This document shows, in pieces, positions 24,682 to 64,000 of a DNA stretch of 64,000 nt. This stretch comes from Thuidium tamariscinum (Eukaryota > Streptophyta > Bryopsida > Hypnales > Thuidiaceae). Every line of letters begins with the position of its first letter. Within the stretch, counting starts at the first letter, position 1. The position numbers and the translations under genes were made by a program. Location of the stretch: assembly GCA_947034885.2 (NCBI GenBank), contig OX344754.2, positions 23,578,501-23,642,500 on the forward strand. Direction: 5' to 3'. Under the pieces are notes generated by a model, which was given only the letters and a program-made list of their open reading frames with translations, did no database searches and had not been told where the DNA came from.

Positions 24682-24722
24682 GGGTTTTAGGGTTTAGGGT
24701 TTAGGGTTTTAGGGTTTAGGGT
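24682..24722. repeat. Interstitial telomere-type repeat
   Basis: About six units of GGGTTTA or GGGTTTTA in a row, the plant telomere sequence TTTAGGG with occasional extra T. It lies about 225 bp beyond the stop of the PQ-loop gene. Confidence 0.85.
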
Positions 24723-42592: not shown

Positions 42593-42865
42593 TTCTGCCT
42601 TTCATTCCTTGAAACCATTTTGCCGAAGAATGTACAGTTGTAATTTCCGAAAGAGAGTGCATTTGCAATTCCTTTAAGGTAAACTATCCTATTGTGATTA
42701 GAATGAATTGAAATAAGCTCTTAATGGGCAAAATTGTAATAGTCGTGTACAATTGAGAATTTAAATGTACATCACCACTATACTTTTGCTCATAGTGGGC
42801 TTATTCCAATTTTGACCACAATGGCGTACGTTACTTCAAGTGGGAGTCCAAAAAATAATCTCATA

Positions 42866-43232
42866 TGGTGAAAACACTCAAAACTATTCAAATAAGGAAT
42901 TCAACATAATTGGAGGCAGATTTTTCTAGTATTAGTGAGTGAAACTCATGAATATTAAATAATAATAATAATAAATTGGATGCCCTATAAAAATTTTATG
43001 ATTTTTCAAAGTGTGGCTCCCTAAACCATTGAAAATGTTCAATAGATGCCCCCAAATTTGAACATAGCTAAAATTAATAGTGAGCCAATCAAATTCTGGT
43101 ATATGTCCTTAATATACGTCAGCGAATTAAGATCAAGCATGTGGTAAACACATTAACAACAGTCTAGGGACAATTTTGGATGAGTCTAGAGTCCAATGCA
43201 AGGTACAAGTGCGGTATTGGATGTTTTTCCCT
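42866..43232. mobile_element. TIR element of the R2 family, copy 3 (reverse orientation)
   Basis: It is the reverse complement of the order seen in 22441-22820 and 25327-25710: 'aaataaggaattcaacat', 'attggaggcag', 'tttctagtattagtgagtg', 'gtggctccctaaacc', then 'ggtacaagtgcggtattggatgttttt'. Terminal 'gaaaacactc' and 'gatgttttt' form a short inverted repeat. Confidence 0.6.
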
Positions 43233-43930
43233 TATTGAATTTTTTTTTTTAAACAAATGGAATGACCCTCATTGAAACTTTGGAGTCGCTTTCAACCTTG
43301 ATAAGTATAATGGCAATGATAAGTTAATTGCTCAGGTACATTCTATATCAAACTACTGCACTGGATGGAGGTGGGGGAACTTTGTGTTGGAAGATTGTGG
43401 GGAATTTGGTGACTATGCTTGCAATGTAATGATGGAACTGTTTGCTTGCAGTCCATTTTCTCAACACTTGGAACCAGCCCTTTTTTTTTGCTTTTTGAGA
43501 AAGTGCCAACATGGCGATCACTTAAAATTTGGTGAAGCATTGTATTTCTACATTCATTCAACTTTTGCACTAAAAAATACTTTATAATTATATTCATACA
43601 CTTTATCATCTAAATTTGGCGATTTCATCCACGGTTTTCATAAAAATGGTAAATTTCTGGCGAAAAAAGGTTACTTTTTTCAATACTTTTTTGGTGAAAA
43701 AAAGATTTCTTTTTGAAATGGTGCTTTCTGGCACCATATTGCCCAAAAAAAGGGCTGCTTAGAACCTCGCAATTGGCTAACCTTTTTTTATTTTGTTTTT
43801 AAACACAAGGACCATTTCATTGGCTACCCTTTTTCAAAGAGGGGCTGGGCATCGCAAGCCCATTTCATTTGATCCCAACATCTAGGGTGGCTGGGCATAA
43901 TTTATGGGTTGTAAATTGAGTTATAATTAA
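43233..43930. other. Intergenic DNA, no gene recognised
   Basis: Open frames at 43343-43609 occur on both strands without recognisable domains. Confidence 0.45.
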
Positions 43931-44873
43931 CCCCTAAAGGATCAAACTGCGTTTTGGGGCAACATAGCGATTTCGGGCAATTCACTACAAATGGAGTTTT
44001 TATTCTTTTTCTTTGAAATTTTCACACAATATGCGTCCGAGGAGTAGCTTTAAGGTCCAACAAGTTTCATAACATTTGACTACATAGTCAAAAAGTTATT
44101 GCATGATATGTGATTTCTTTTGATCTTTGGGCAGCCTGGGCAGATTAAAAAACTTCTTTAAAAATAATTTTTTGAAAAAATGAAAAGATGAAAAATTTTA
44201 TTTAGAATTTTGTGTATGCAGGAATGTTTGAATCACTCCATTTGGATTAGTGAGTCAAAAGTTATGAGGAGATTTAGTTTGAGGTAGTTTGTGGCTAGTT
44301 ACAAAATTCCTACACTACAAAAAAAGTTTGAAATACTTTATTTAATTCAATTTTTAATAATTTTGGATAAAAATAATTGAAATAGGTGAAGATTGTTTAT
44401 TACAACATTTTAACCATTAGGATCAGAAATTTTCAATTCCATAAATAAATTTTTCACAATTTAGTGTTTTGGCTCATTTTCTACTTCTTTGTACTTGTTA
44501 TTTTTTTCCTCTATGTTTTACAACTCCAAACGATTTGAATTTTTTTTTTCATATAGCCAACTTGCCTTTAAGAATGAATCCAGAGAGTAACCGCCAATTT
44601 GAACTTTTTTTCATACAAATGTAACCTTGTGAAGTGCAGCTGCCCGGATTTCCACAGTGGTAAAAGAAGGATTTTTGTCACTTCAAACACTAATATCTTG
44701 CAATCTACATGGCGGAAATTGCTGAAATTTTTTCCACATCTTTTTAAACTTGTGCTCTAAAAGATACTATGGTTACTTTTGTCCAAAAAAAATTTCTTAA
44801 AATTTGGTAGTTGTCTAAAAAATGACTGTTTTGAAGCGGTTTTGGTGAAAACATAGTCAAAAACCTTTAGGGG
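43931..44873. mobile_element. Larger TTAA-flanked element (943 bp) with perfect 10-bp ends
   Basis: TTAA at 43927-43930 and 44874-44877. The ends CCCCTAAAGG and CCTTTAGGGG are perfect inverted repeats. The interior is AT-rich without a transposase frame. A partial relative lies at the window start (1-222). TTAA target sites with CCC termini are the hallmark of piggyBac-class elements; the class is inferred from ends only. Confidence 0.75.
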
Positions 44874-45305
44874 TTAACTTGGCAAATGGTGGCCTTCTTC
44901 TCAAAGGCACAAGGCTTACAATCAGCCCTATTTATTATTCCTGATTGGGTGGTGGCACTCTATATTTAATATGTCCATGTAGCATAGATAGTAGAAACTG
45001 CTCCACTAGGTGTAAAATCTATCAATTCTTCTTCTCTCCTTGGTTCTTAAAGGTCCTATAGTTTGATTCGATGGAAGTACTTTGGTGTGGACCATTCTCC
45101 AATGAACAATTTTTTATTTTCACTCATCTCACTATGCCAAGGAATTTAGAGCTCTTCATATAAAGAACAATCTATCACTATTCAAATATTAAACCACAAT
45201 TGAAAAGTTATTAATAGGATTAAGTACAAGTGGTATAGAGGGTTCCCAATGGTCTTTCAAGGGTTAATTACTCTTGTGTTGTTGAACTATCTAGTCAATT
45301 TGTAG
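44874..45305. other. Intergenic DNA, no gene recognised
   Basis: Nothing was seen beyond AT-rich sequence leading into the tandem repeat. Confidence 0.45.
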
Positions 45306-45906
45306 GATTTTGGAAATTAGATCCTATTGGCCACATTGAATGTTCTTTGTATGCAATCTAGGGCCATGACTTGACTATCAAAAGGATGCACATAAGAGAG
45401 ACATATCCAATCCTATCTCTTTAAGAATTCCTCCTTTGTATATTAGTGGTGCACCTTTTTTTTCCTCTAGAATGTACTCCATGGATACATGAGGATGGAA
45501 CAATTTGGAAATTAGATCTTATTGGCCACACTGAATGTTCTTTGTGTGCAATCTAAAGCCATAGCTTGACTATCAAAAGGATGCACGTACATAAGAGAGA
45601 CATGATATCCAATCCCATCTCTTTAAGAATTTATCCTTTGTATATCAGTGGTGCACTTTTTTTTTCCTCTAGAATGTACTCCATGGATACATGAGGATAG
45701 AACAATTTGGAAATTAGATCCTATTGGCCACCCTGAATGTTCTTTGTGTGCAATCCAACGCCATAGCTTGATTATCAAAAGGATGCACTCATAAAAGAGA
45801 CATCTTGAATCCTATCCCTTTAAAAATTCCTCCTTTATATACCAGTGGTGCACATTTCTTTTCCTCTAAAATGTACTCCATGGATACATGAGGATGGAAC
45901 AATTGG
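45306..45906. repeat. Three tandem units of about 195-202 bp
   Basis: Each unit begins 'ttggaaattagatc' (about 45310, 45505 and 45707) and runs through 'tattggccac', 'tgaatgttcttt', 'tatcaaaaggatgcac' and 'atgtactccatggatacatgagga'. The units are similar enough that the array looks recent. The last unit abuts a GC-richer segment at 45907. Confidence 0.85.
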
Positions 45907-46236
45907 GTGCAAGGACAGGAATGGGTAATGCCTATCTTCCTTCCACATCAATCTGTCCTTGTGCTGCCAAGTCGGGCCATGCAGCGTCGCTTTGCTACAG
46001 AAAGGGGCTTGGCAGTTGTTTTCAGAGGCTGGACTCAACCTCCAAAAGGAACAAAGAAAATAAGGCAGCGGACGGTGGCCGCGTCCCACGCTTTTGACAG
46101 GAATCCCACTTGCAAATCACTCCGTAATGTTGGTAGATTACAAACCGTACATTCCTTTGGGATGGAGCTCCCCAAGCCTTTCGCAATTTTGGTTGACCTT
46201 GTCCAGTGGTGAAGGACTTATCAGAATTATTAGATA
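45907..46236. other. GC-richer segment of unknown origin
   Basis: 45907-46212 is open in two forward frames and differs in composition from the surrounding AT-rich DNA. No domain was recognised. It could be captured gene sequence or the body of a repeat. Confidence 0.35.
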
Positions 46237-46543
46237 AGGTAAGGGAGTGTGCTCTTGAAGTGACCTTCTAAGAGCTGATTGCAATTGGGGGAAGCTAAAC
46301 TCCTTGAAACAATTTTCAATCAATTTTCATAGGAAGATAAATGGAATTGGCATTCAACCCAAGTCAATTTGTGTTTTTTGGACCTTTGTGGAATTAGGTA
46401 CAAATTTTTGAAGTTGAAATGAAGTGGTTTCTTAAAGCAAGCCCCTATTGGAATGTATACTCTTTGTACATTGAAGAAAGGAAAACTTACCTCTGTGTTA
46501 GAGGTCACTTTTAGAGCTAGGTTGCTGTTAGAGCCACTTACCT
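46237..46543. mobile_element. TA-family MITE, copy g (307 bp)
   Basis: The ends AGGTAAGGGAGTG and CACTTACCT are flanked by TA on both sides. The interior contains the reverse of the family signature ('ggcattcaacccaag', 'tttttggacctttgtggaatt'). Confidence 0.68.
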
Positions 46544-46666
46544 TAAAGATAGTTGGAATTGGTCTATTAGGAGTCTCTTACAACTTGGTTTAGCCAATCA
46601 CATAATTGGGTTTGATTTCTAAAATAGAAGCTAGGGAACTATCCCTCATAACATTGTTTACAAATA

Positions 46667-47061
46667 GGGGTTGTCACACCTTCTCTGAGAATGAAATTTC
46701 TATGAAGAATGAGAAGGTGTGGAGTGAAAGGAGGAGCCAATAAGAGTCCTTCTCCTTGAAGAAGGTGTGACTCTCCTTTTCACCATGCAAAGAATGTGAG
46801 AATGGACACAACTTGTTAATCTTCTTTACAACTTCTCAATCATCATGGTTTCTCAACCTTCATGCCTATTTTGACTTCTAGAGGGGATGAAAAAAACTTC
46901 CCAATCTTCAAAGACTGAATGGGCCCTTTGCAAGTCAAGGAGAAAATACCACGTCTTTAGTTCTTGAAGATTGAGGATGGCCCCCCCACAAGTCAATGAG
47001 AGGGTGCGACACCTTTGTTCTTTGAAGATTGAGAATAGCAGAAGAAGGTGTGACAACCTAT
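46667..47061. mobile_element. TIR element with GGTTGTCACACCTTCT ends, copy 1 (about 395 bp)
   Basis: The left end GGTTGTCACACCTTCT is complementary to the right end AGAAGGTGTGACAACC. The internal AGAAGGTGTG motif recurs several times (46713, 46763, 47043). A second, more diverged copy lies at 49424-49745. Class unknown. Confidence 0.68.
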
Positions 47062-47561
47062 AATGAGGTAGGAGCCCTTTTTGCATCCTTGAAAACAGGG
47101 TCTTTATAGTTTATATATATTTAGCGTGGCATAATACCTTTTCAACATGTGACCACTTCTTGGTTATACAATGTTATGCGTGATTAGCAAAGAAGTTAAA
47201 CCTCTCAACTTTGACTTAGAGCTTCTAATCACAATTGAAATGTCAACCCTAGAAAAACATGCTTCTATCAGTAATGTTTTCTAGGCAAAAATAACTCAAA
47301 TTCTTAGATGAACAGGTGCATTCTTTGTTACTACAATTTTTCCAAAAGTCATTTGTGGGATGTCCAAATTTTAGCCTTTGTATCCAAAAAAATTTATTTA
47401 AAATTTTTCTAAGAAAATTAATTCCCCCCTCCCCCTGCCTCAGATTTCAAAAAAATCAATTAATTAAAATAATTTCCTCCCCTCCTTCCCCCCCCCCCCC
47501 CCCTACTTAAAATTTTGAGAACCCAATTAACTTAAACAATCAATATGGAACAATTAAAAAC
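47062..47561. other. Intergenic DNA with a poly-C tract
   Basis: 47426-47445 and 47476-47503 are C-rich, the latter with a long uninterrupted C run. No gene was seen. Confidence 0.5.
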
Positions 47562-47712
47562 CCCATATCCCATATCCCATATCTCATATCCACTTCCACA
47601 TCCATATTCATACCTATATTCACTATTCACTATTCATATCATATCAAATATTCATATCCATATTTGGTATTGTACCTAGAATTTATATGCACACAATATC
47701 CATATCCATATT
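47562..47712. repeat. Degenerate CATATC minisatellite
   Basis: Many CCATATC, TCATATC and TATTCA variants in succession. Confidence 0.75.
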
Positions 47713-47901
47713 TTGAATTCCTATTTAGACACTCAAATTACATCTCACAAGGATCAACACCTTGTGTTTTTTTGAGAAATCAACAACATTTTGGAAGGGG
47801 AAACATTTAAAAAATAAAAAATCAACGACCTATGGTTTTTGAGAGAGAGGAGGGAATTAATGGTGAATCAAGAGGAGACTGCCACTTTTGGAACCATTGT
47901 C

Positions 47902-48152
47902 CATTGTCATGCATGCATTTGTTGAGCTTTTTGTCCGTCGTCTGGGACCCAAACTGATTTGCAACATTGCCCTTATCATCAAAAATGGGGGATCCATTGT
48001 ATTGTGCATTGCATGTGCTTTTATGAATTGTTTTTTCACTTGATAAGTTCTATAGAGTACTTTTTTTCTTTTTTTTGATGATAAGTGCAAACAGAATCAG
48101 TTTGGGTCCCAGACGGCGGGCAAAAAGCTCCATCATCAAATGCATGACAATG
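47902..48152. repeat. Strong hairpin: about 85-bp arms, about 80-bp loop
   Basis: The arms are 47902-47986 and 48068-48152. Landmarks in the left arm, CATTGTCATGCATGCATTTG, GCTTTTTGTCCGTCGTCTGGG and ACCCAAACTGATT, are each matched in reverse complement on the right (AATCAGTTTGGGT, CCCAGACGGCGGGCAAAAAGC, CAAATGCATGACAATG). It may be a foldback element or a small-RNA precursor. Confidence 0.8.
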
Positions 48153-48793
48153 TTACGCACAGTTCAGGTCCTCCCTTTTGGTAGTACCATGCACACCACT
48201 GCCTCACTGTTGGGGGGACTGCCTTTGAGGAGAATCATGGCCAGCTTGGGAACCAGCCAGTGGTGCCAACCAAATGCAGACCAAATGCACTTCATCGGAC
48301 TGAAAGAAGTCCAGGTGCAAAGCCCCGGCAAGCACAGGCCCTCCTCTTATGTCCGGTTGTGGAGAAGGAAACTGACATTGGGAACTTCGGAGGATTTGTC
48401 TTCAGGTGCGGAGGGACTTCAACAAAAGATACCCACAAAAGACGGAAAAACAACATATTGATGTTGAGAATTTTTCTTTTAAATTAAAAATTTTAAGAAT
48501 TAATTTTTATTTTAAGAATTAATTTTTATTTTAAAAATTAAAAATTAATTTTAATTTTAATTTTTTTAATAATAATTGTTGAGGCCTCCAGTGTGAATTG
48601 AAAGTGATTCCATTGCTGGGGATTAGGGTACAGTCTTGAATGGTACATTTACACTTGGTGGTAGGGGTAATGTTTGCTATGTGAGGACTAGAAGTAGGAC
48701 TAGAAGTAGGTCACCCTAAACCCGGCTAATTTTGAGCCTTTGATTGCAAGTATGAATTTTTTTAAATTTGCAAATCTTATCATTTGTGGCAAA
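48153..48793. other. Intergenic DNA, no gene recognised
   Basis: 48153-48461 is GC-richer with open frames but no recognised domain. 48480-48575 is simple AT sequence of TTAATTTTTA-type motifs. Confidence 0.4.
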
Positions 48794-48795
48794 TA

Positions 48796-49070
48796 CACCC
48801 TTTGTCCCAAAATGATTGTTCACAATTTTGTTGATCCTTTTTGAGCCAATTTCATTGACTATATTGCAAAAAATATAATTAAGAAAGTTTTGAAGTTTTA
48901 TGTTAGTCAAATCAATGAAGAACATTGCATGTATTCAATACAACCTATGGAAGTATTCTTCTATAGATTACATTGAAATTAGCCATAGGAAAGTATTCTT
49001 TTTACCTACTCATAACATCCTTCTAAAAACATCACATTCTAAGTGAACAACCATTTCAAAAGGGAGGGGA
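48796..49070. mobile_element. Diverged Stowaway-like MITE (about 275 bp)
   Basis: TA then CACCCTTTGTCCCAAAATGATTG on the left, and CATTTCAAAAGGGAGGGGA then TA on the right. The interior aligns with 54419-54829: 'ttcattga', 'aatcaatgaagaacattgca'. Confidence 0.65.
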
Positions 49071-49423
49071 TAACAAATTTTAGGGTTGTTAATTGTAACC
49101 ACCAACTCTAAAATCAGTTGGGTGTAGGAAGATAATTGATCAAGCATAGAATAGGGTTGTTTTTTTATATGCATCCTTGAATGACTTTGGATGGGCAAAT
49201 AAGAAGGTTGGTTCACCCTAGCTAGTTGAGATGTATTAATTAAGAATAAGGGAGAAGTACTCCGACTCTAGCTAGAGGTTGTTTAAGGTAAATTAACTTA
49301 TGACAAGTAAACCACCTATGACAAACACTAGGTCTTGTACCAACCCATAATAGACTTCATTCAATAAATGAGAATTGGGCTATATTAGGATGAGTTGGTG
49401 GTCACAATTAATAGAGGTTGTCA

Positions 49424-49745
49424 CACCTTCTCCATGGAGAATGAAACGTCTTTAAAAAATGAGAAGGTGTGCAATCAAAAGAGAAGCCAATAGGAACCTT
49501 TCTATATAATGGGCTCTTTAAAGACGGTATGATACTCTATCTAATAAGGAGAATAAAGGAGAGAGAGAGGGAAAGAATGCCCAGGTTAGACAAACTTCTC
49601 GGTCAAGCCCATTCTTCATCTCCAAAGGAGAAGAATGAAACAATTCAATCTTCGAAGAATGGACTCTTCCATAATTCAAGGAAAAAGTGCCACATTCTAG
49701 TTCTCTAAAGATTGAGGGTTGAGACAAGGTGTGATATCACCTAAT
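49424..49745. mobile_element. TIR element with GGTTGTCACACCTTCT ends, copy 2 (about 320 bp)
   Basis: The left end GAGGTTGTCACACCTTCT is intact. The right end AAGGTGTGATATCACCT is degenerate. The interior follows 46667-47061 ('gagaatgaaa', 'gagaaggtgtg', 'gccaata'). Confidence 0.55.
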
Positions 49746-51000
49746 GTTTTGGATAATGGTCGTGGAGTTATTAGTGACTACAGTAGGAACTTTCTCCTAT
49801 TGAGTGTAAGTTTTTCACAAAAAATGACTTTTAGAGGCCTTCATGTTGTTTTTGTATTAAGAAATATTTCTATTGTCCTAAATGAGGAAGATGCCCATTA
49901 TGATCAAACACACTTTTTGTTGGTTTTGAGGTAATCTTGAGTCTTAATATTTGGATCAATTGGAAAGTACACTTCAAATATTCATACCAAATTCATACTT
50001 TGTCAAAAAAACAAAATTCTAATTGGTCTCTATAATTCTCATGCTTGTTTTTATATTGGAAAAGAAGTTAAATTTTTTTTAATGATTCCAATAGGACAAA
50101 CAAATCATTCTACATCATATAGATTGGCTTATCTTATCAACTTGACTAAACAACCTATTCATTTTAATTTGAATCTCCTAACTTAGAAGGTAATGCATGA
50201 TTCTTAAACTGCATATCTTCATTTTTAGGACAAACACAATAGAGATTAAGAATCTACTCAAATCCTAGTTGGGAACTTATTTCAATGGTACATCCAAATT
50301 GTATCAATTGTTTCATCCAAAATGTTTATAACAATCTTTTAAGAACTACTTTACAATGGATAATGAAAATAACTAGTATAAGATGAATTGATTCATCTTC
50401 CTTGAATGGTGATCCAAAATCAAAATGATAGGAAAATTGTCAAGTAATATTATAAAAAGAAAAAAAATGTTTCAATTAATTGTACTAAAAATATACAAAT
50501 GTATAAACAAAAACTAAGAATGTTGGTTGGTTTGACTCCACTTCTTCTTGAAAAATACTTCTATATCTTTTGAACTTCATTAATTAATTAATTTTTTGGA
50601 GATGCTTATTTTAACATTCAAAATTTATACTAAAGTTAATTTATTTCTAAAACTTTATTGATTTTAAAGAAGACACTCATACTTCTAGTAGCCACTAAAA
50701 AACTAAAAAATTAAAATTAAATTATTTTTAGTAGACAAAGTCAATGCAATCTAAAGTAATTGGTGTATTTGGCTTTAATCAAATTAATACAAATTGTGTT
50801 TGAAGAAATTTAATAGATAGTTTCTTCAAGAAAATTTTGAGCATGTGTCAATACATACAATGCTTTCTACAAGCTACGTAAGCAAACAAAAAATGATTCA
50901 AAAAATTATCCATGTATTGTTATTGTTACTTGATTTTGCTTTAATTTTGTTGGATTTTTTTGAGGGTTCAAAAATAGTATTTTCCTAACAAATCACTCTT
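49746..51000. other. AT-rich intergenic DNA, no gene recognised
   Basis: Nothing structured or coding was seen. Confidence 0.5.
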
Positions 51001-52413
51001 TGTACAGTGGGGTACCAATCAAAATGTCGTTTTCGAATTCGCAATGAGGAAAATTTCAGTACAACCAACTTTGAAAGCCTCTCGAGAGCTCAAGAATTAG
51101 TATTTTATCACAGAAGTTTTACTACAACATCTTCTTTAAGTTAATTATATGTATGCCAAATTTCAAGGCCAAAAGATTCACCAAAAAAAAGTTATTTAAA
51201 ATCTACCAACATGGATAGTGGTGAGAAACATTTCACTACTTTCAACTTTGACACCTTCCTAAGGATTTTTTTTTCTTTTGCCATGAAATTTTTGTTATAA
51301 AACAATTTCTATGTTTCTGATATGTATAAAAAATTTCAAGGTATTTGAAATTATTTTTAAGAATTATTTTTTAAGAAGATATTTGAAATCTCCCAACAGG
51401 TGTAGTTTTGAGAAAATTTTCACAATTGCCAACTTTGACACCCTCCCAAGGGCTGAAATTTGGTTTCATACCATGAAGTTTTTTTTGTGAAGTCATCTCT
51501 ATGTTGATAATATGTTCTCCAAATTTCAAGTTCAAATGAATTACCAAAAAAAAGATATTCAAAATCTCTCAACATGTGTAGTTGTGAGAAAATTTTCACT
51601 ATTGCCGACTTTGACACCCTCCCAAAGGCTGAAAGTTTGTTTATTTAACATGAATTTTTTTGAATAAGATCAAATTTATGTTGATAATATATTTTCTAAA
51701 TTTCAAGTTCAAAACACTTACCCAAAAAAAGATATTCAAAATCTCTCAACATGTGTAGTTGTGAGGTTGAGTTTTTACATTCGTGTCAAACTTTGCTCCA
51801 CAAAATAACACTATACTAAAGGCTCAAAAACTCAACCTCACAACTACATATGTTGAGAGATTTTGAATATCTTTTTTTGGGTAAGTGTTTTGAACTTGAA
51901 ATTTGGAGCACATATTATCAACATAGAGATGACTTCACAAAAAAACTTCATAGTATGAAACCAATTTTTCAGCCCTTAGGAGAGTGTCAAAGTTGGCAAT
52001 TGTGAAAATTTTCTCAAAACTACACCTGTTGGGAGATTTCAAATATCTTCTTAAAAAATAATTCTTAAAAATAATTTCAAATACCTTGAAATTTTTTATA
52101 CATATCAAAAACATAGAGATTGTTTCATGACAAAAGAAAGAAAACACAATCCTTAGGAAGGTGTCAAAGTTGAAAGTAGTGAAATGTTTCTCACCACTAC
52201 CCATGTTGGTAGATTTGAATAACTTTTTTTCGGTGAACCTTTTGGCCTTGAAATTTGGCATATATATAATTAACTTAAAGAGGATGATGTGGTAAAACTT
52301 TCGTGGTAAAATACCAATTTTTGAGCTCTCGAAAGGCTTTCAAAGTTGACAACTTTGAAATTTTTCTCACTGCGAATTCGAAAACGACATTTTGATTGGT
52401 ACCCCATTGTACA
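51001..52413. repeat. 1.4-kb palindrome built from tandem units
   Basis: The outer ends TGTACAGTGGGGTACCAATC (51001) and GATTGGTACCCCATTGTACA (to 52413) are inverted repeats, and complementarity continues inward for hundreds of bases. The left arm holds about four diverged units of roughly 160-200 bp (each with 'caaatttcaag', 'caaaatctctcaacatgtgtagt', 'ttttcac' and 'aactttgacacc'). The right arm holds about three in reverse order. The short centre (about 51780-51830) is flanked by 'gttgagttttt' and 'aaaactcaac'. No coding sequence. Confidence 0.88.
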
Positions 52414-54418: not shown

Positions 54419-54829
54419 CTCCCTCCGTCCTGAAACGATCATCCACAGTTTTGTTGGTATTTTCAGAGGTAATTTCATTGATCATATTGTGAAAAACATA
54501 ATTTATGAAGGTTCCAAATTTCATACTACTAGAATCAATGAAGAACATTGCACATGTTTATTGCAACTTAAATAAAATTAGCCACAAGGACGTTTCCATA
54601 TGATCTAAGGTAAACCAGCCTATGACACACCAAATGCCTGCCAACCCATCACAGACAAAAATATTCTAGTGATGCACATTTCAGATTTTGGGTATGTACA
54701 CCATTAGTACAATTTTGCCTGTGATGGGTTGGATGGCATTTGGCCTGTCATAGGCTGACTTACCTTACACAGAAACAACCTTAAAAAACATGACATTCAA
54801 AGTGCACAATCATTTCGGGAAGGAGATAG
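54419..54829. mobile_element. Stowaway-like MITE (411 bp)
   Basis: TA then CTCCCTCCGTCCTGAAACGATCAT on the left matches the classical Stowaway terminus. The right end ATGATTGTGCACTTTG in reverse, finishing TTTCGGGAAGGAGATAG before TA, is its diverged partner. The flanking TA pairs are 54417-54418 and 54830-54831. An inner inverted pair ('ccaaatgcctgccaacccatcacag' and its partner near 54720) may be a nested insertion. Confidence 0.75.
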
Positions 54830-55104: not shown

Positions 55105-58100
55105 TGGGAGACAAACCTGCATTGTGTCTACAGTAGTACCAAAACATGGAATGAAATGATACTTGTTTCACAGGCTGAACCGCAAGCAGAACAATGGTCT
55201 CCAAGGAAATTTAACTTCAGATTTGCTTGATGAGAACTTACCACAGAGATGATGATCGCTCTGCCAGAGATACGATCCTCAAAAACATTTATCAAACAGT
55301 AGTTCGAGCCTCGTACATGGCGAGTATGAGGTGGTATACCCTTTTTGATGACCACTACGAACTCTTCATCCTGTACATCAAGAATCCTCGTGAATCTATG
55401 AAACTACTGAAGTATAGGACTGAGTGAGAGAGCACATTTTTAATAAGCTAAACATGTTAGAAACCTAACTCTAGAGAAAATAAACTTGCAAACATGGAAT
55501 TTTACTGCAAATCGTTCAGCAAGGTGCTTCCTTAAGTCGTCCGCTGTCACCCCTTGCTTCATTTGAACAAACATGGCGGACATCATTCTTCGGCTCTGAA
55601 AACCCCGAAAGAGTTAGAACAATGAAATGTATTTGATTCCTGTTGGTTAACCAACATCTTTACACAGAAGAGACTTTATAACTCCTAACCATTATCACAG
55701 ACCTAGAAAAATCCATATGTAGGGCTGCTGCTCACATTTCAGAATGAATTGCATTCCAGTGTCAATTTACACTTCAACAAACTTGTAAAGAGGATCGAGA
55801 TTATCACCATGGGCATGAAATTTGGAGTGAAGCTGATCGTAACATCTGAGCGAACTGCATCGCCAAGCCCTTGTTTAATTTCAGGGACTGTGAGAGAACC
55901 GGCAACCAAGTGAGCTGGGGATTATCCGCCTTTCAGATCAATCAAGCCAAAATCGCAGTAGCGTGTTAGCATTTTCAGAGACATGAGGATTTGTTGCAAC
56001 AAAAATTAGCTTGCTTCAGAAGTAAATCCTAAAATGTGAATGCAGGCAAAATATACCATGGCGATGTCTTGTAATTCCGTAAGGATGAATACCCTCACAA
56101 ATCTCCGTAGATAAATTTGCCTCCCTTGCACCGCGACCTAAACACGAGGAACGTCAGCTATAATAAGTTGTCATGCCAAAAATATACTCACAATTCATCT
56201 ATCCACAAAATCCTCATCTAAGGGAGCAATGACTCTCAAGGCAAAGAATGTGTGATCTTACCTGCACCACTGACACCTGAGTTTGCATTGATGATGATAT
56301 TCTCCTTCTCGATTATTCCAGACTGAAAATAAGGAAAAAAGTGACATTATATTCACTCTCTATCAGCATTACAACATCATCACAGCATCGTCAGTAATCG
56401 TCGATACATCTTCAATAGTCCACGCTCAAAACAAGGGAAATAGTAAGCACAGATTTCTGAGTCATTCTCTCAACAACTCAAAGAGATTATGCACCTTCAG
56501 TAAAGGAGTCAAGCGAAGTTGAATTGAAGTCGGGTAGCAGCCAGGATTGGCAACCAAACGTGCTGCCCGAACCTCTTCTCTGTATATCTCTGTCAATCTA
56601 TACACCGCTTCAGTCTGTCAATTCAACAGAGGTGGTTAAAACGAGGACCAATAGATCACCCCCCATCCCCAAACTGAAGAAATTAAGAATCGGGAGAAAT
56701 TTGATAGCTAGAATTGAACAGAAAAGTCGATCCAGAGGTTTCGCTGTAGACTTAATGAAAGAAAGACTCCAGACTAAGATCTAAAATGCACCATATCTCA
56801 TTTACGTCATGCATGGGGCAGCAATATGTATTTGTGTCACCGAGCTGGCGAATAGATGACTATGGCTACGTAGGAATATAAAATAATGAGGACACGAACT
56901 TGCACATTCACGAAATTCTCATTTTTTGAAAACTCTTCAAAACCAAATCGTGACGTGGGAAAGAAATGGCTCATGAGTTCTGAGGAATTGACCTGTTTTC
57001 GGAAGCACGATGAGGTTCATTGTACCACTCTTCGTAAGTGTCAGTATTCCGACGACGAAAATCCTGCACCATTTACTCAACGAAAAAGTGTCACCCACGA
57101 GTCCTTGACATGCTAAACTAGTTTATGAACAGATGAAGATTTGGAAGTATTACTGAGCTGCAAACGCACAGGTCTTTGGTATGAGCTTACCGCTGATAAA
57201 TCCACCACCTTCAAATCGTTGGGGAGAGCTGCAATTATCTCCTGCAATAAGAAAGAACGTACTCCCAAGCATGAAGTAAGAAAATATCCATAACCTCTAA
57301 TAAAATGCACACATTGAGAACGCCTGCTTCTAGATAGAAACGAACAGTGAGCCAGCAGTGCCATGTAAAACGGTGAAAGCTAAGGGCACCAACTACTGAC
57401 TTAGAAATTTCTCGCCTATTCTTTGAACCCCTAGCTCTCATGTGGTGTCATGCCAAGGGGAAAAAGTTGTACAGTTTGATCCATTGAGAACTTTTTGATA
57501 GACATTCTGGTCCAGAGTAACCTCAATAATCAGGCAGTACATTAAGAACACCTCTTCATATGTCATCACTAGTTACAACTTAACCTCTAAAGGACCAAAG
57601 GATCAAGGCTTCACGGTTTCAAAAATGACCAATTCGTTTGATCAAATTGTGCAAATGGACCAAATTCTGGATCACTAGTATCAAACAAAACATTGCACGT
57701 GCCTCCCCCAAAACCAAATAAAATAGAACTCAAAAGATGTGCCTAAAAGACAAACTTAAAACTTCTAAAAAAACATGAGGCAGAATTCAAGCCTCTTAAA
57801 CCTTCAGGGCTCAAGAATACCCGAAGGAACTCATCTCCAGTTGTACCTGGGTGGTCCCGTGAGGAAGGCATCAGAACACGGCATCCACTTTCGAGAAGTC
57901 GGCATCCTTGACTGCAACCAGAGCTGGCAAATCCTGTAAATTGACATCATCCATGTCAAGTACATACTTTGAAACGTCGACTTCAACAGAATCCAAACTA
58001 CACAACCTCAAAATCTAAGCAAGAAAAAAACATCTGAAATCGTTAGAAAGGACGCTTTCAACCTCACCTGGGTGATCAATGGGGGAAGACAGATCCTAGA

Positions 58101-59303
58101 GACCGGCCTGCCTTCCGATCGGCCGTCATCATCCTCACTTTGAAGAGCGGGCGTGTCGCAAGCAGGCGAATTATCTGTTCACACACCCCAATTGACGACC
58201 CACGCTCTTACCACACCATACAATCAAATCACAAATCCTAAAACATCAAAAAAACTAAAAGAAACTAAAAGCTCAGCATACAGAGACTCGCACAACATTG
58301 CATGCAAATATTCATTCCTGCGCAGATTCAGGCACAACATTCTAGAACAGATAAGTTAAGAGCACTCACCCTTCTCCATTGCAGACTCAAATTGAAATAA
58401 TACTTCAATCTCTATAGAGAATTATCACATGAAGTTACGAAATTCTTCACGATTCAAAATGCGACAGTGTAAGAACTGTCATGAGCTGAAGATTGTGTCC
58501 AAAAGGACTCTAAGGTGTTTACACCCATAATGAACACTGACCAAAATGCTGACACCTATATTTGGACCCAAAAGCATCACAAATTGGATTTTGATATTGA
58601 TTACCCAGAATGCACACAATCAAAACATGAGAGACTATGAGAGCCTAGTGTTGGATATTGGTGCACTTAGAGACAATCAAGACATGAAACAGTCTCGAAG
58701 AGCCTAGTGTTGATTTTTGGTGCACCCAATATACTTTGAAAATTCTTAACTTATTCATTCAATATCCAAACAATGCAAACTAAAGTGCGATGGAATCCTC
58801 TTTCAGTGCCAATCAAAATCCGTTAAAAACAAATTATGATTTCACGATAGCAACTATGCTCAGTTTAATTAGTGACAATTATACCTGGACGTCCCTTCTA
58901 TTCCATTTCATGAACAATTCCAAGGATGTTGAGGGATCTCCCTCCAGAATGTAATGTAAGTCATTTCTAGCACCTCTGATCCCGTGTAGCACTGGCACCC
59001 AGGACCCTCGCTCCGATCACCCTTGAAAGACTTCACTGCCTCCTTCGGCACCAACGTCACCGTCATCCTCGTTCTGGAGTTTCCACAACGACCGAAGCAA
59101 GCCATGTTTCCTGCGAACGACGAGTCCTTGGAACCTCCACAGCCATCGTCCCTACAGCCATCGTCCCTCGATCTGAAATTAGGTCATTCAATCCCAATTG
59201 AAGAAGCATCCAGCGCAATTGAAGAGGGAATCGAACCAAGACACACCTGTAAGGAAGCAGTGCGAGGAATCAAGACCATTCTGGCTTGTGACGAAGTGGC
59301 CAT
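55105..59303 (-). pseudogene. N-acetyl-gamma-glutamyl-phosphate reductase (ArgC/AGPR), decayed copy, about 12 exons
   Basis: The intact enzyme makes N-acetylglutamate semialdehyde in plastid arginine synthesis. Exon remnants: 59303-58974, 58174-58068, 57933-57847, 57241-57191, 57063-56993, 56614-56495, 56322-56262, 56137-56057, 55887-55808, 55595-55506, 55370-55242, about 55190-55105. Exon 1 starts with a plastid-transit-like leader (MATSSQARMVLIP). Recognised motifs include TADRKAG, CLPHGTTQ, NPGCYPT (catalytic Cys present), SGVSGAG, TRHRH and VRGSNYC. Lesions: in-frame TGA at 59186-59184; the NADP-binding GASGYTG readable only after two compensating single-base shifts near 59010 and 58990; exon 2 one base short at the FPHL position; TGA for the first Cys of FCCLPHG at 57873-57871; a phase clash between exons 5 and 6; Gly to Arg in VYGLTE; Asp and Lys lost from IIIDAKSG; last exon degenerate. 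Splice sites mostly survive. Assembly errors could explain some lesions but hardly all. Confidence 0.85.
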
Positions 59304-62048
59304 AGCGGGCTAGCTCTAAAACCCAAAACCCAAATCTCCTGGAAACTCGGGATCGGGGGAATGTTGGAACTGTAGATGGAGATGGGTCGGGAAATTCAGA
59401 AGCGAAGGTGGTGATTGAAGGTTCAATGTGACTAGGAATTGGGGATGCCAATGAATCGTGGAAAACAGAGGATTCTCTGAAATTCCGAGGTTCGACTTTA
59501 CACAGAAGAGACCGTCCTGGTGAGTTGCAGGAATGGAGTGGACCGTCCGATTAGCTCGGCCGATGTAGACCGTGAGATTGGAGGAGATTGCTCTAACACA
59601 GGAAGCTAAGAGAGGAAAGTAATAACTCCACCCACAAAAAATTTGATTGGCACAAGGTAGGGGCACTCATAACAGCCAATTTAAGCAATTTAAGCATACT
59701 AGGAATCACTTTTTCCTGTAAAGAATATTTTTGGAGTATTAGCAATTGAAAATCATTATTTTTCAAAAAAAATATAGAATTTTTGGATAAGGCATCTAAT
59801 TTCTATGAATTTTCAAAACAGTACTCACTGGGGTAACTAAATCTGCACTCAAAGGAAATATGCCTTGATTCTCATACCAAAATCGAAATAAATCAGAGCC
59901 CGCCAACCACAATTGAGCATGGGGATGGTTTCATGGTAAATTTGGAGATACTTTTAACAAAATTCTAGTGTCAAACAATGAGTACATGTGAAATTAATGG
60001 GTGCTCCTACCTTACTTGAAAAGTTTGTTCACTATAGTAGTAGTCTACCATGGTTGACTAAATAGTCACAATTGAAGGAGTGACGTTAGGATTAAAAGGA
60101 AAATTCAATGTTACTTCTAAAAACACCTCCATCAGTCCACATGACATAAGGCGTGCCAATTTGGTTAATGAGCATGGCCAAAATCAAATGCTCCCTATAA
60201 AATGTAGGGATTGATTTTTGGTAAAGCATGGGTTGACAAATTTGCAAATCTCTCATTGTTGGGACACAAAAGAAGTCTAAGCATGCCAAACCATTTGACA
60301 AGGCAAAATAGCTTGTCTTGGTGGAGATGCTCTAAGGAAAGGGAAGAGAGTGAGGTTATTTTTTAAAACGGGGTGGGGGTCAATGAGGTTTGTGAAATTG
60401 TGATGGTAGTTAGCAATGATTTAGTTTGTATCCCATAGTTGCCAAGTAGTTGATTGTTTTTGATAGAATATTTACTTGCAATGTTATTTATGGTCAATAA
60501 AATCTCGATGACAATTTTTTTGGGGATGTTGAAGTATTCCTAAATTAAGTTGGTGGTGTGTTAGTGTGTAAATTGTTCATGGAGCTCCACTGGTGAGTAT
60601 GATTAGCAATTGTGTACTTCATTTGTGTATTCTAATGTTGGAGTGGTTAATATATTATAATTTTGAAGTTTGTAGTTGATTGAATTTTGAAAGAACATGT
60701 CATTGTAGTAGGTGAATTTGATGAATTGTAGATTGTAGGTGTTGGAAGGAGTGGTGACTAGGAAAGGTGAGGTATAAATGTAGACAATGCTAAGGCATAA
60801 ATAATTTGGAGATCCAATTACAAATTGTATTGTCAAGGCAAGTGTATGGATACAATTAATTGGATATTGTGTATCATGGGGGTGATTTTTAAATGTTCCT
60901 ACATTCATAAAGAGGTGGCATTACAACTTTGTATAAAAGAAATAGTTTGTGTAAGGTTTGAATGGTTTTGTTATATTATTGAATACCTAGAGTTTTAATT
61001 TGGAGTTGATTACAAGAAAGTAGTATATGAATCCATATGTCCAGTTGATTGGGGTTTTTAATAGATGAACATAATATTTAAAGAGGAAGAGTCTATATAA
61101 TACTTACAACAAACTAAGTAAGTTGGAGGACATCTTATTCATCCCTAAAGGAAGGTATAAGACTCTTCAATTAATGGACGGAAGGAGTCTTATTGGGGGA
61201 TATTTTATTCATCTTTGATGTTGTTTATACAAAACTCTTCAACATATAAATTGAGAGAAGGCTTCTTGATTATCTACTTATCCCTTTTCACATACATTTC
61301 TTCAACAAGTTAGAGGAATGCAAACTCTCTACTGTAATTCCCCCTAATAATTGTTAACTAATTCTAGAAGGGTCATTTTGCTCTTCTAAAAGGAAGAAGT
61401 TGGAAGCAAAATCATTCCAACCAAATGCAATGAAAGTAGCTCACAAATTAAAATAAAGGTATCCAAGGAAAGAATATTTCTTTTGCCTTGATCATAGGGA
61501 AAATGCAATGGTTCACATCCATGGTCTTGTTATTTTTCTTTCAAAATTTTGTCAAATCTATCAAATTTTGACCTCCCTAGCTTTATTCCTATTAAAATAC
61601 ACTTCTGCATTGAAGCCAACAAGGTGGATAATGGTCCAAAATAAAACTTGTTGAATATATGATATTTTGAAATTGAGAGCCATAACAAACAATTGATTGA
61701 GTATACCTACTATCAATAATACCAACTAGGCATATTTTCTATTATTTTGCATAAATGATTAAATTGGATCTATTGGGCAAGTGGCCAATAATGCACTTTA
61801 GTATGCATTATTTGGAAATGGTATAAATAAATTATTAGTGGTCAAATAATTGTTCAAAGATGTATCAAAAATTGATCAAATTCAAAGATTCAAATTCCTT
61901 CACCTATGTACTAGAGGTTTCACTAAATTTTTTTAAAATGGATATCAAATTATTAGAAAGTATTTTCCATTTGGAAGGAGTGGATTATGTAGAGTATTTC
62001 TATTTCTAAAATTCATTAGAAAAAATCAAATATTTGAAATAGAATACA
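59304..62048. other. Intergenic DNA, no gene recognised
   Basis: 59304-59650 is presumably the former promoter and leader of the AGPR locus. The rest is AT-rich with only short, domain-free open frames. Confidence 0.5.
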
Positions 62049-62051
62049 TGA

Positions 62052-63172
62052 CACTAGAAGAAAACAAGGGGTTTTGCAACTACAGTTTGCAATTGGTTTT
62101 GTAGTTGCATCAGGCATTTGCAACTAAGAGATAATTTAGAGATTGTAGTTGCAGTGGACAAGTTGCAATAGTTGCAAGCTAGTTGCAAAAAGTGAAAAAA
62201 TTATTTCTCATCTGATAGTCTCTGTAGAACTTCGTTGATGAACTCTTTCAGTGTGGTTGTTGATGTGGAACTTGATTGCCGTGACTTGTTGCAACTAGTT
62301 TGCAATTGGCTTACAATGAGCGTGCAACTGACTTTCAACTAGTTTGCAATTGACTTTCAACTAGATTATTTGTAGATTTTAAAATTTTAATCTCAATGAT
62401 TTGTAGATTTCAAAATTTTAAATTTATCTTTTTTTTAGATTAGCAATCCAAATATTTATATTGATAGATTTTACTGCTTTAAAAAATTTTACAATTTTAT
62501 AGATTTTTACAATTGGTAGATTTTTGTAGACTATAGAAATCTAAAAATTGTAAAAATTTATAAGCTGTAGAAACCTAAAAATTGTAGAAATCTACAAAGT
62601 ATAGAAATATTATAGATTTTTACCATTAAAATTCATTATACAAGAATGCTATAACTTATGATCCTTATACATTTAATCTAATGGTATTTCTAACAATTGA
62701 TATGGGATAATTGATATGAGACTTAATCCTAGTTGTTTCCTAATTGTATACTAATTGGTTTTTAGTTGTAACGTAGTTGCTTAACTATTAGTTGAATTCT
62801 AGTTGCATGATAGTTGAAAACTAGTTGAATGCTAGTTGTAGAGTAGTTGACAACTAGTGGTATAGTCGCATAGTTGCATAGGAGTTGCACAAATACATAG
62901 TAGTTGCACAATAGCTGTACAGTCGCACGATAGTTCCATAGATACTAGTCAACAATTGTAATAAACATTGATGTAGAATACCTTACGATTCTTTTTTTCT
63001 CATTCCTGCAAACTCTAAACTTCATTTTGCAACTACTTTGCAACTACCCTGCAACTACAACAATGTAAACATCAATTTGGTGCAAATATAGAGGGATGTA
63101 GTTGTACAATAGTTGCATAAGACATGTAGTTGCAGTGCAGTCGGTTGTAGCGGACACATTTTTATTCTAGTG
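62052..63172. mobile_element. Non-autonomous CACTA element (1121 bp) with TGA target duplication
   Basis: The ends CACTAGAAGAAAAC and TTTTTATTCTAGTG carry the CACTA and TAGTG termini. The flanks are TGA at 62049-62051 and TGA at 63173-63175, an exact 3-bp duplication as expected for the superfamily. Both sub-terminal regions (about 62075-62350 and 62760-63150) are packed with TAGTTGCA or TTGCAACTA motifs in both orientations. The centre is AT-rich with an inverted pair (about 62500-62605). No transposase frame. Confidence 0.88.
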
Positions 63173-63175
63173 TGA

Positions 63176-63519
63176 GTACAATATTTCATTGTTTGATTGT
63201 GTACATTTTGTATTATACTAGATACTTATAGATTTTTGTTTTCTCTTTTGACACAAATGTAGGTATTGATCTAGGGGAAATGATGATCACATGTGCATAA
63301 GCCTTAAAAGTAAAAATATAAGATATGTGCATCTATGATTATCATTTACTTAATGGTTGACAAAGATGGTGTTACAATAGTGCTAGATTAGTCTTGGAAG
63401 GACATAGCTCATGACTATGCAATCAAACTTCAAATCATTTGCATTGTATATTCTATTTTTTCATCATGCATGATGGAAATTTGTAGTTCAATTTTTAACC
63501 CCAAAGTGACATTCAATTT
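63176..63519. other. Intergenic DNA, no gene recognised
   Basis: Nothing was seen. Confidence 0.45.
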
Positions 63520-64000
63520 TTAAGGTTCAAAAACATCATTGCTTTTGAAGCTTTATGGATCTAAATGTTTTCAAGTTATATAAATCTCAACTATACTATC
63601 TTGTAGTGTACATGTTGTAGATGACATGTACAGAATTTGAAGTCATTTGGCCACATAGATTGCAAGATCATAATGTCTTAGTGTTGAAAATGGATGCTAA
63701 AATTGACCCAAAACACATTTTGAGGTAAAATTTGATTTCTAAACCTATTCAAATGAAGAACTTTACATTACAAATTGATTCAAAACTAGTATACAAACAC
63801 ATTGGTGAAAAAAAATTTCATTCAACTGACTCATTGTATCTACAAAACACCTTTGAAATGTCAAAAATCAACAAGAAAAATTGCAAAAAACACTTCTAAA
63901 GTTGAACCTCCTTCTACTAGAATGCTTCTCAATCACTCTTTAATTCTTGGATTAACATGAAATTTTACCCACACAAACTAGACTAGTATGCCTATCTTTT
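63520..64000. repeat. Dispersed repeat R1, truncated by the window end
   Basis: It starts 'aaaaacatcattgcttttgaag' and follows 19030-19500 and 39238-39700: 'atttggccacatagattgcaagat', 'tttgatttct', 'acacaaactagactagtatg'. It continues beyond the window. Confidence 0.6.

Follow-up and report, generated by a model that had tools for sequence, protein, structure and literature searches.

Among described systems, the closest to the locus examined here are the plant N-acetyl-gamma-glutamyl-phosphate reductases (AGPR, ArgC), as known from the rice (PDB 2cvo) and Arabidopsis (1xyg) proteins. AGPR is generally held necessary for arginine synthesis, and the GASGYTG motif of ArgC is involved in NADP binding. 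The second point of reference is the class of duplicated (non-processed) plant pseudogenes, in which introns are kept, a parent gene with an open frame exists, disabling lesions are present and amino acid replacements are in excess. In the literature that we searched by title or abstract opening, with partial coverage, no description of a plant AGPR pseudogene was found.

Here we analysed 64,000 nucleotides of the Thuidium tamariscinum genome (the window; positions 23578501-23642500 of contig C6, in an assembly of 363,211,507 bases and 19 contigs). The minus strand of the window carries, between positions 59303 and 55242 (C6:23633742-23637803), exons of a plant AGPR gene in their proper order, 12 out of 13. 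This copy is identical to the rice and Arabidopsis proteins at 201 and 193 of 293 residues, respectively, in ungapped alignments, and it shares with them the NPGCYPT and HRHVPE motifs. In contrast to both, its frame is broken, its glycine motif is scrambled and the C-terminal exon with the IDNLVKGASGQ segment is missing. When compared with the duplicated plant pseudogenes, it matched all the features of the class named above and we found none beyond them. The window locus is thus almost certainly a duplicated, non-processed pseudogene of nuclear AGPR, and an ordinary textbook case of the late death of one member of an old duplicate pair.

Identity and exon structure of the window locus

The identity of the locus was established with a concatenated read, made by joining exons 3-12 of the window copy by hand, that served as query for phmmer and for the curated ArgC model TIGR01850. 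Rice AGPR aligned with it over 293 residues without gaps (E = 5.6e-130) and Arabidopsis AGPR gave a comparably strong match (E = 1.7e-125), and the TIGR01850 score was 295 bits, the cut-off being 233.6. The window exons were also recovered singly by tblastn, without the concatenated read; the misframed ORF of exon 3, used as a phmmer query, gave no match. A second AGPR-like place in the window was rejected, as the next match had E = 2 and nothing further lay below it. The G+C content was 50.1% in exons 2-12 and 38.3% in introns 2-11 (the last base of exon 2 being counted as intron). A scan of a viral contig collection for plant relatives gave 62 stretches that fit a pattern, with none confirmed.

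An earlier note on this DNA had described ordered exons with mostly canonical splice sites, and this description can be extended: GT and AG border each of the 11 introns that separate exons 1 to 12 (the donor of exon 1 reads GTGTGT), so that 11 of the 12 introns of the parent gene are retained. The presence of these 11 introns leads us to reject a processed pseudogene (retrocopy), in agreement with the same note, which had left the choice between a duplicated and a unitary pseudogene to be made; it is the second locus described below that decides for the former. Exon 1 was placed by local alignment with the corresponding region of the second locus (score 45; maximum of 35 in 200 shuffles).

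Table 1. Features of the window, in window positions, with the AGPR exons compared with those of the copy on contig C1.
Feature	Position	Strand	Remarks
AGPR exon 1	59247..59303	-	57 nt, 60 nt in C1 copy; start of transit-peptide region MATSSQARMVLIPRTASLQ
AGPR exon 2	58974..59172	-	199 nt, 195 nt in C1 copy, from global alignment to C1 exon 2; last part of transit peptide, then NADP glycine motif
AGPR exon 3	58068..58174	-	107 nt, 108 nt in C1 copy; one-base deletion
AGPR exon 4	57847..57933	-	in-frame TGA at 57873-57871
AGPR exon 5	57191..57241	-	frame intact
AGPR exon 6	56993..57063	-	71 nt, 72 nt in C1 copy; one-base deletion near 3' end
AGPR exon 7	56495..56614	-	NPGCYPT retained; VYGLTE changed to VYRLTE
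AGPR exon 8	56262..56322	-	IIINANSGVSGAG; identical residues in C1 copy
AGPR exon 9	56057..56137	-	
AGPR exon 10	55808..55887	-	
AGPR exon 11	55506..55595	-	RGM changed to RRM
AGPR exon 12	55242..55370	-	last recognisable exon
Palindrome, MITE-like	54606..54767	.	162 nt; 74-nt arms, 82% complementary; downstream of exon 12
Phospholipase C Pfam-domain gene	4-9 kb		
MutS Pfam-domain gene	13.5-17.7 kb		
PQ-loop protein Pfam-domain gene	26.5-31.6 kb		

A second AGPR copy with an open frame on contig C1

A search of the whole genome with a segment of the rice protein placed the best 14 candidates scored in two places, eight of them at C1:1578474-1581563 and six in the window; since only the best candidates receive a score, a third copy in advanced decay might have escaped notice. 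The C1 locus (C1:1577375-1581777; L067:1375-5777) consists of 13 exons with 1,242 coding bases, that is 413 codons and a stop. Its frame is free of internal stops and includes both the C-terminal IDNLVKGASGQALQN segment and a complete GASGYTG motif. A TGA occurs in two of the eight matches at C1; both of these matches extend past the exon into the intron, and the spliced frame is without TGA. Intron positions are equal in the two copies, exon length is the same in 8 of the 12 exons that they share, and 250 of 293 residues are identical. The two copies are alike in intron positions and in having INANSG, whereas C1 alone has the open 413-codon frame and exon 13. The introns and the 5' end common to both copies show that the AGPR gene was copied as DNA, introns and 5' end included.

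That a further AGPR copy was to be expected elsewhere in the genome had been anticipated in the earlier note, and the uninterrupted frame on C1 answers to this expectation. Judging from its sequence, the C1 copy is presumably expressed and active and, having retained its open frame, would be the one that supplies the enzyme. This bears directly on the alternative that the window locus is a unitary pseudogene, the only AGPR of the plant being lost and the plant being either an arginine auxotroph or rescued by another enzyme. The necessity generally ascribed to AGPR in arginine synthesis may be counted on the side of this alternative, as may a genome search with PF01118, which taken alone gave only one place (C3:6788280). 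The frame found there (L052:1234-2511), intronless and of 425 codons, reads as what we take to be an aspartate-semialdehyde dehydrogenase-like protein. However, the PF01118 search missed both AGPR loci, the window copy included, probably as a result of introns splitting the domain, and the protein search did give a complete AGPR locus on C1. We therefore reject the unitary pseudogene, which has become extremely improbable, on the open frame of the C1 locus and on the activity that we presume for it. A loss of the arginine pathway would not be expected, because an AGPR copy with an unbroken frame remains on C1, and with this locus the readings of auxotrophy and of rescue by RNA processing become unnecessary.

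Lesions of the window copy

Comparison with the C1 copy allowed the lesions of the window copy to be told apart from older differences. Two in-frame TGA codons had been proposed for this locus. One of them stands, in exon 4, where the C1 copy has TGT (Cys); the other (59186-59184) belongs to intron 1, because exon 1 has its GT donor at 59246, in the place that corresponds to the end of exon 1 in C1. The proposal of at least three single-base disruptions, one pair of them in the glycine motif, was borne out. One base is deleted from exon 3 at about 58078, inside FPHLITQ, and one from exon 6 at about 56997, both placements being dependent on the alignment. In exon 2 a +1/-1 pair runs through the glycine motif within 59015-58985 (again with gap placement dependent on the alignment), the insertion preceding the first part of the motif and the deletion following it, and no intact NADP-binding GASGYTG is left in the window copy. 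As in C1, the end of exon 1 is in phase 0, and from the acceptor at 59173 exon 2 runs into a stop in frame 0, the conserved part of exon 2 being in another frame than exon 1. A continuous AGPR reading frame is accordingly lacking, owing to the TGA of exon 4, the deletions in exons 3 and 6, and exons 1 and 2 being out of frame with each other; exons 7-12, when spliced, are free of stops. The start of exon 2 (59139-59168) is a perfect tandem duplication of a 15-nt unit without counterpart in exon 2 of C1.

The 3' end of the gene is missing. A remnant of the last exon had been read at about 55105, in a gene thought to have twelve exons, but the C1 gene has 13, of which 12 are recognisable in the window, and the remnant was rejected: exon 13 aligned downstream of exon 12 with a local score of 19, equal to that of shuffled sequences (mean 19.6, maximum 24 in 100 shuffles), and at the protein level nothing in the window matched it with an E value below 0.39. 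The IDNLVKGASGQ segment is consequently absent. DNA similarity to the C1 locus ends at about 55220, and the twelfth intron has a GT donor with no exon behind it. The palindrome that follows may be a MITE; no target-site duplication could be established around it, and part of it (54656-54719) resembles window positions 42727-42788.

Replacements confined to the window copy include G112R, in VYGLTE, as well as G223R, H8R, L217F and others that are absent from C1. The loss of the VYGLTE glycine, which had been listed among the losses of strictly conserved residues, is hence particular to this copy, and the Asp and Lys of IIIDAKSG listed together with it are not, as Asn occupies both positions in C1 too.

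Residues shared by the two copies

In both AGPR copies (for C1, L067:4370-4430) IIINANSGVSGAG stands in place of IIIDAKSGVSGAG. We compared them with 53 other ArgC rows, made up of 51 bacterial loci (one truncated) and the rice and Arabidopsis proteins, and at the two Asn positions all 53 other rows have Asp at the one and 50 of them have Lys at the other. At 20 sites in total the window and C1 copies differ from rice and Arabidopsis in the same way, among them the Asn residues of IIINANSG and G97N. Since the Asn residues are common to the C1 copy, they predate the duplication, as does G97N, and represent no lesion and no decay. Reading a single locus thus overstates its decay, two of the residues taken as lost being ancestral and one of the stops intronic, and it is only the paralogue that shows this.

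Conservation in at least 90% of the other rows was seen at 96 columns; the window copy departs from these at 21 (two of which are X in the concatenated read), C1 at nine, rice at six and Arabidopsis at three. Two distant rows of bacterial origin, L050 and L051, have 25 and 41 departures, respectively, so departures alone are no proof of a loss of function. Even so, Asn at positions that are near-invariant for Asp and Lys means that the activity of the C1 copy, as read from its sequence, should not simply be assumed. Should the C1 enzyme work, carrying IIINANSGVSGAG like its dead twin, a seemingly invariant ArgC motif would have become dispensable or been re-tuned in this lineage, which we think unlikely; if it works poorly, the loss of the second copy would have been a real cost. 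Among the matches listed, the bacterial ArgC nearest to rice AGPR (L001-L010; 59-66% identical) are of Rhodospirillales type and of other Proteobacteria, mostly labelled alphaproteobacterial. This closeness is of interest for where the plant enzyme came from, although it was seen in a scan by short peptide patterns and not in a tree.

Selective constraints and timing of the loss

In 291 codons compared between the window and C1 copies we counted 28, 17 and 96 differences at codon positions 1, 2 and 3, respectively. The estimates were dS = 0.65 (bootstrap 0.50-0.86) and dN = 0.081 (0.058-0.108), with dN/dS = 0.126. The low dN/dS together with a dS of this size suggests that both copies were constrained through most of their history, purifying selection acting on both for most of the time since duplication. 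The window copy would then have been disabled through frameshifts, a nonsense change and the loss of its last exon. Signs of relaxed selection on the window copy were found at the sites identical in rice and Arabidopsis, where 17 changes fall on the window copy and three on C1 (binomial p = 0.0026). Counted among the 17 are the stop of exon 4 and one codon beside the gap of exon 6, and 21 ambiguous differing sites are omitted. Leaving out the stop and the codon beside the gap gives 15 against three (p about 0.0075, by hand).

This asymmetry also speaks to the possibility that the gene is intact and only looks broken through errors of assembly or sequencing. The indels are all single-base, as such errors would have it, but the skew of 17 to three in replacements at conserved sites goes beyond what single-base indel errors produce, the TGA of exon 4 is a substitution, exon 13 is wholly undetectable, and the C1 locus, taken from the same assembly, runs over 1,242 coding bases with no internal stop or shift. 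We give this explanation hardly any weight. Alternatively, a transcript of the locus, or a shortened protein from exons 7-12, might have taken on a new role, as the GT...AG borders of 11 out of 11 introns and the stop-free splicing of exons 7-12 could indicate. Set against this are the excess of replacements on the window branch at sites common to rice and Arabidopsis and the loss of the glycine motif, of exon 13 and of the frame from exon 1, whereas retained splice sites are to be expected if the death was recent; such a new role is very improbable.

Returning to the duplicated pseudogene, we estimated the dead time at about 18% (8-30%) of the window branch, under a model with a neutral dead period and one rate for both branches. 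Using the rate of 9.4e-9 per site and year for Physcomitrella (PMC5016923, erratum), the duplication would date to about 34 million years ago and the death of the window copy to about 6 million years ago, both being rough figures that depend on a borrowed rate. An old duplicate with a late death fits these data. The good conservation of exons 7 and 12 and the low dN/dS of the pair would, if taken alone, suggest constraint, and it is only the late death that explains them. We infer that the window locus makes no enzyme, as we infer the order and the dates of these events. The pseudogene could be used as a roughly dated neutral marker, and it counsels caution in gene annotation.

Origin of the duplication and neighbourhood of the locus

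Whether the pair arose through a whole-genome duplication or as a segmental or transposed copy is a sub-question compatible with the duplicated pseudogene. For the moss Physcomitrella a whole-genome duplication has been described, its average Ks being assumed to be 0.85 (PMC5016923, erratum), and the dS of 0.65 found here is within range of it. However, the source plant need not share that duplication, relatives of the phospholipase C, MSH1 and PQ-loop ORFs of the window are absent from C1:1.48-1.68 Mb (E <= 1e-3), and the best paralogue of the one C1 neighbour that was searched is on C7 (59% identical) and not on C6, this view of synteny covering three window genes and one C1 neighbour. A whole-genome origin is therefore quite possible, although we do not favour it. 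Window positions 47511-47839, in which no gene was identified, gave two weak matches at C1:1655261-1655436. Dispersed repeats common to the window and C1 regions were frequent among the matches listed and are uninformative on the mode of duplication.

As to the other genes of the window (Table 1), we take the MutS gene to be MSH1 from its apparent GIY-YIG end. Its coding blocks are few and long. Intron numbers of MSH1 are given in PMC10487979 as 21-23 in seed plants, none in liverworts and hornworts and zero to eight in bryophytes. Among these groups a moss would be the best match for the gene seen here. The six frames of 46500-51400 and of 59250-64000, like three frames of 43000-47500, yielded no Pfam domains at E <= 0.001, and the window contained no Rfam families and no tRNAs. 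Window positions 51066-52348 are occupied by nested repeats, both direct and inverted, whose arms measure about 94-169 nt and are up to 96% complementary, and related sequence is present at C1:1624893-1625555. A short interstitial run of about five copies of TTTAGGG, the plant telomere-type unit, is located at 24686-24722.
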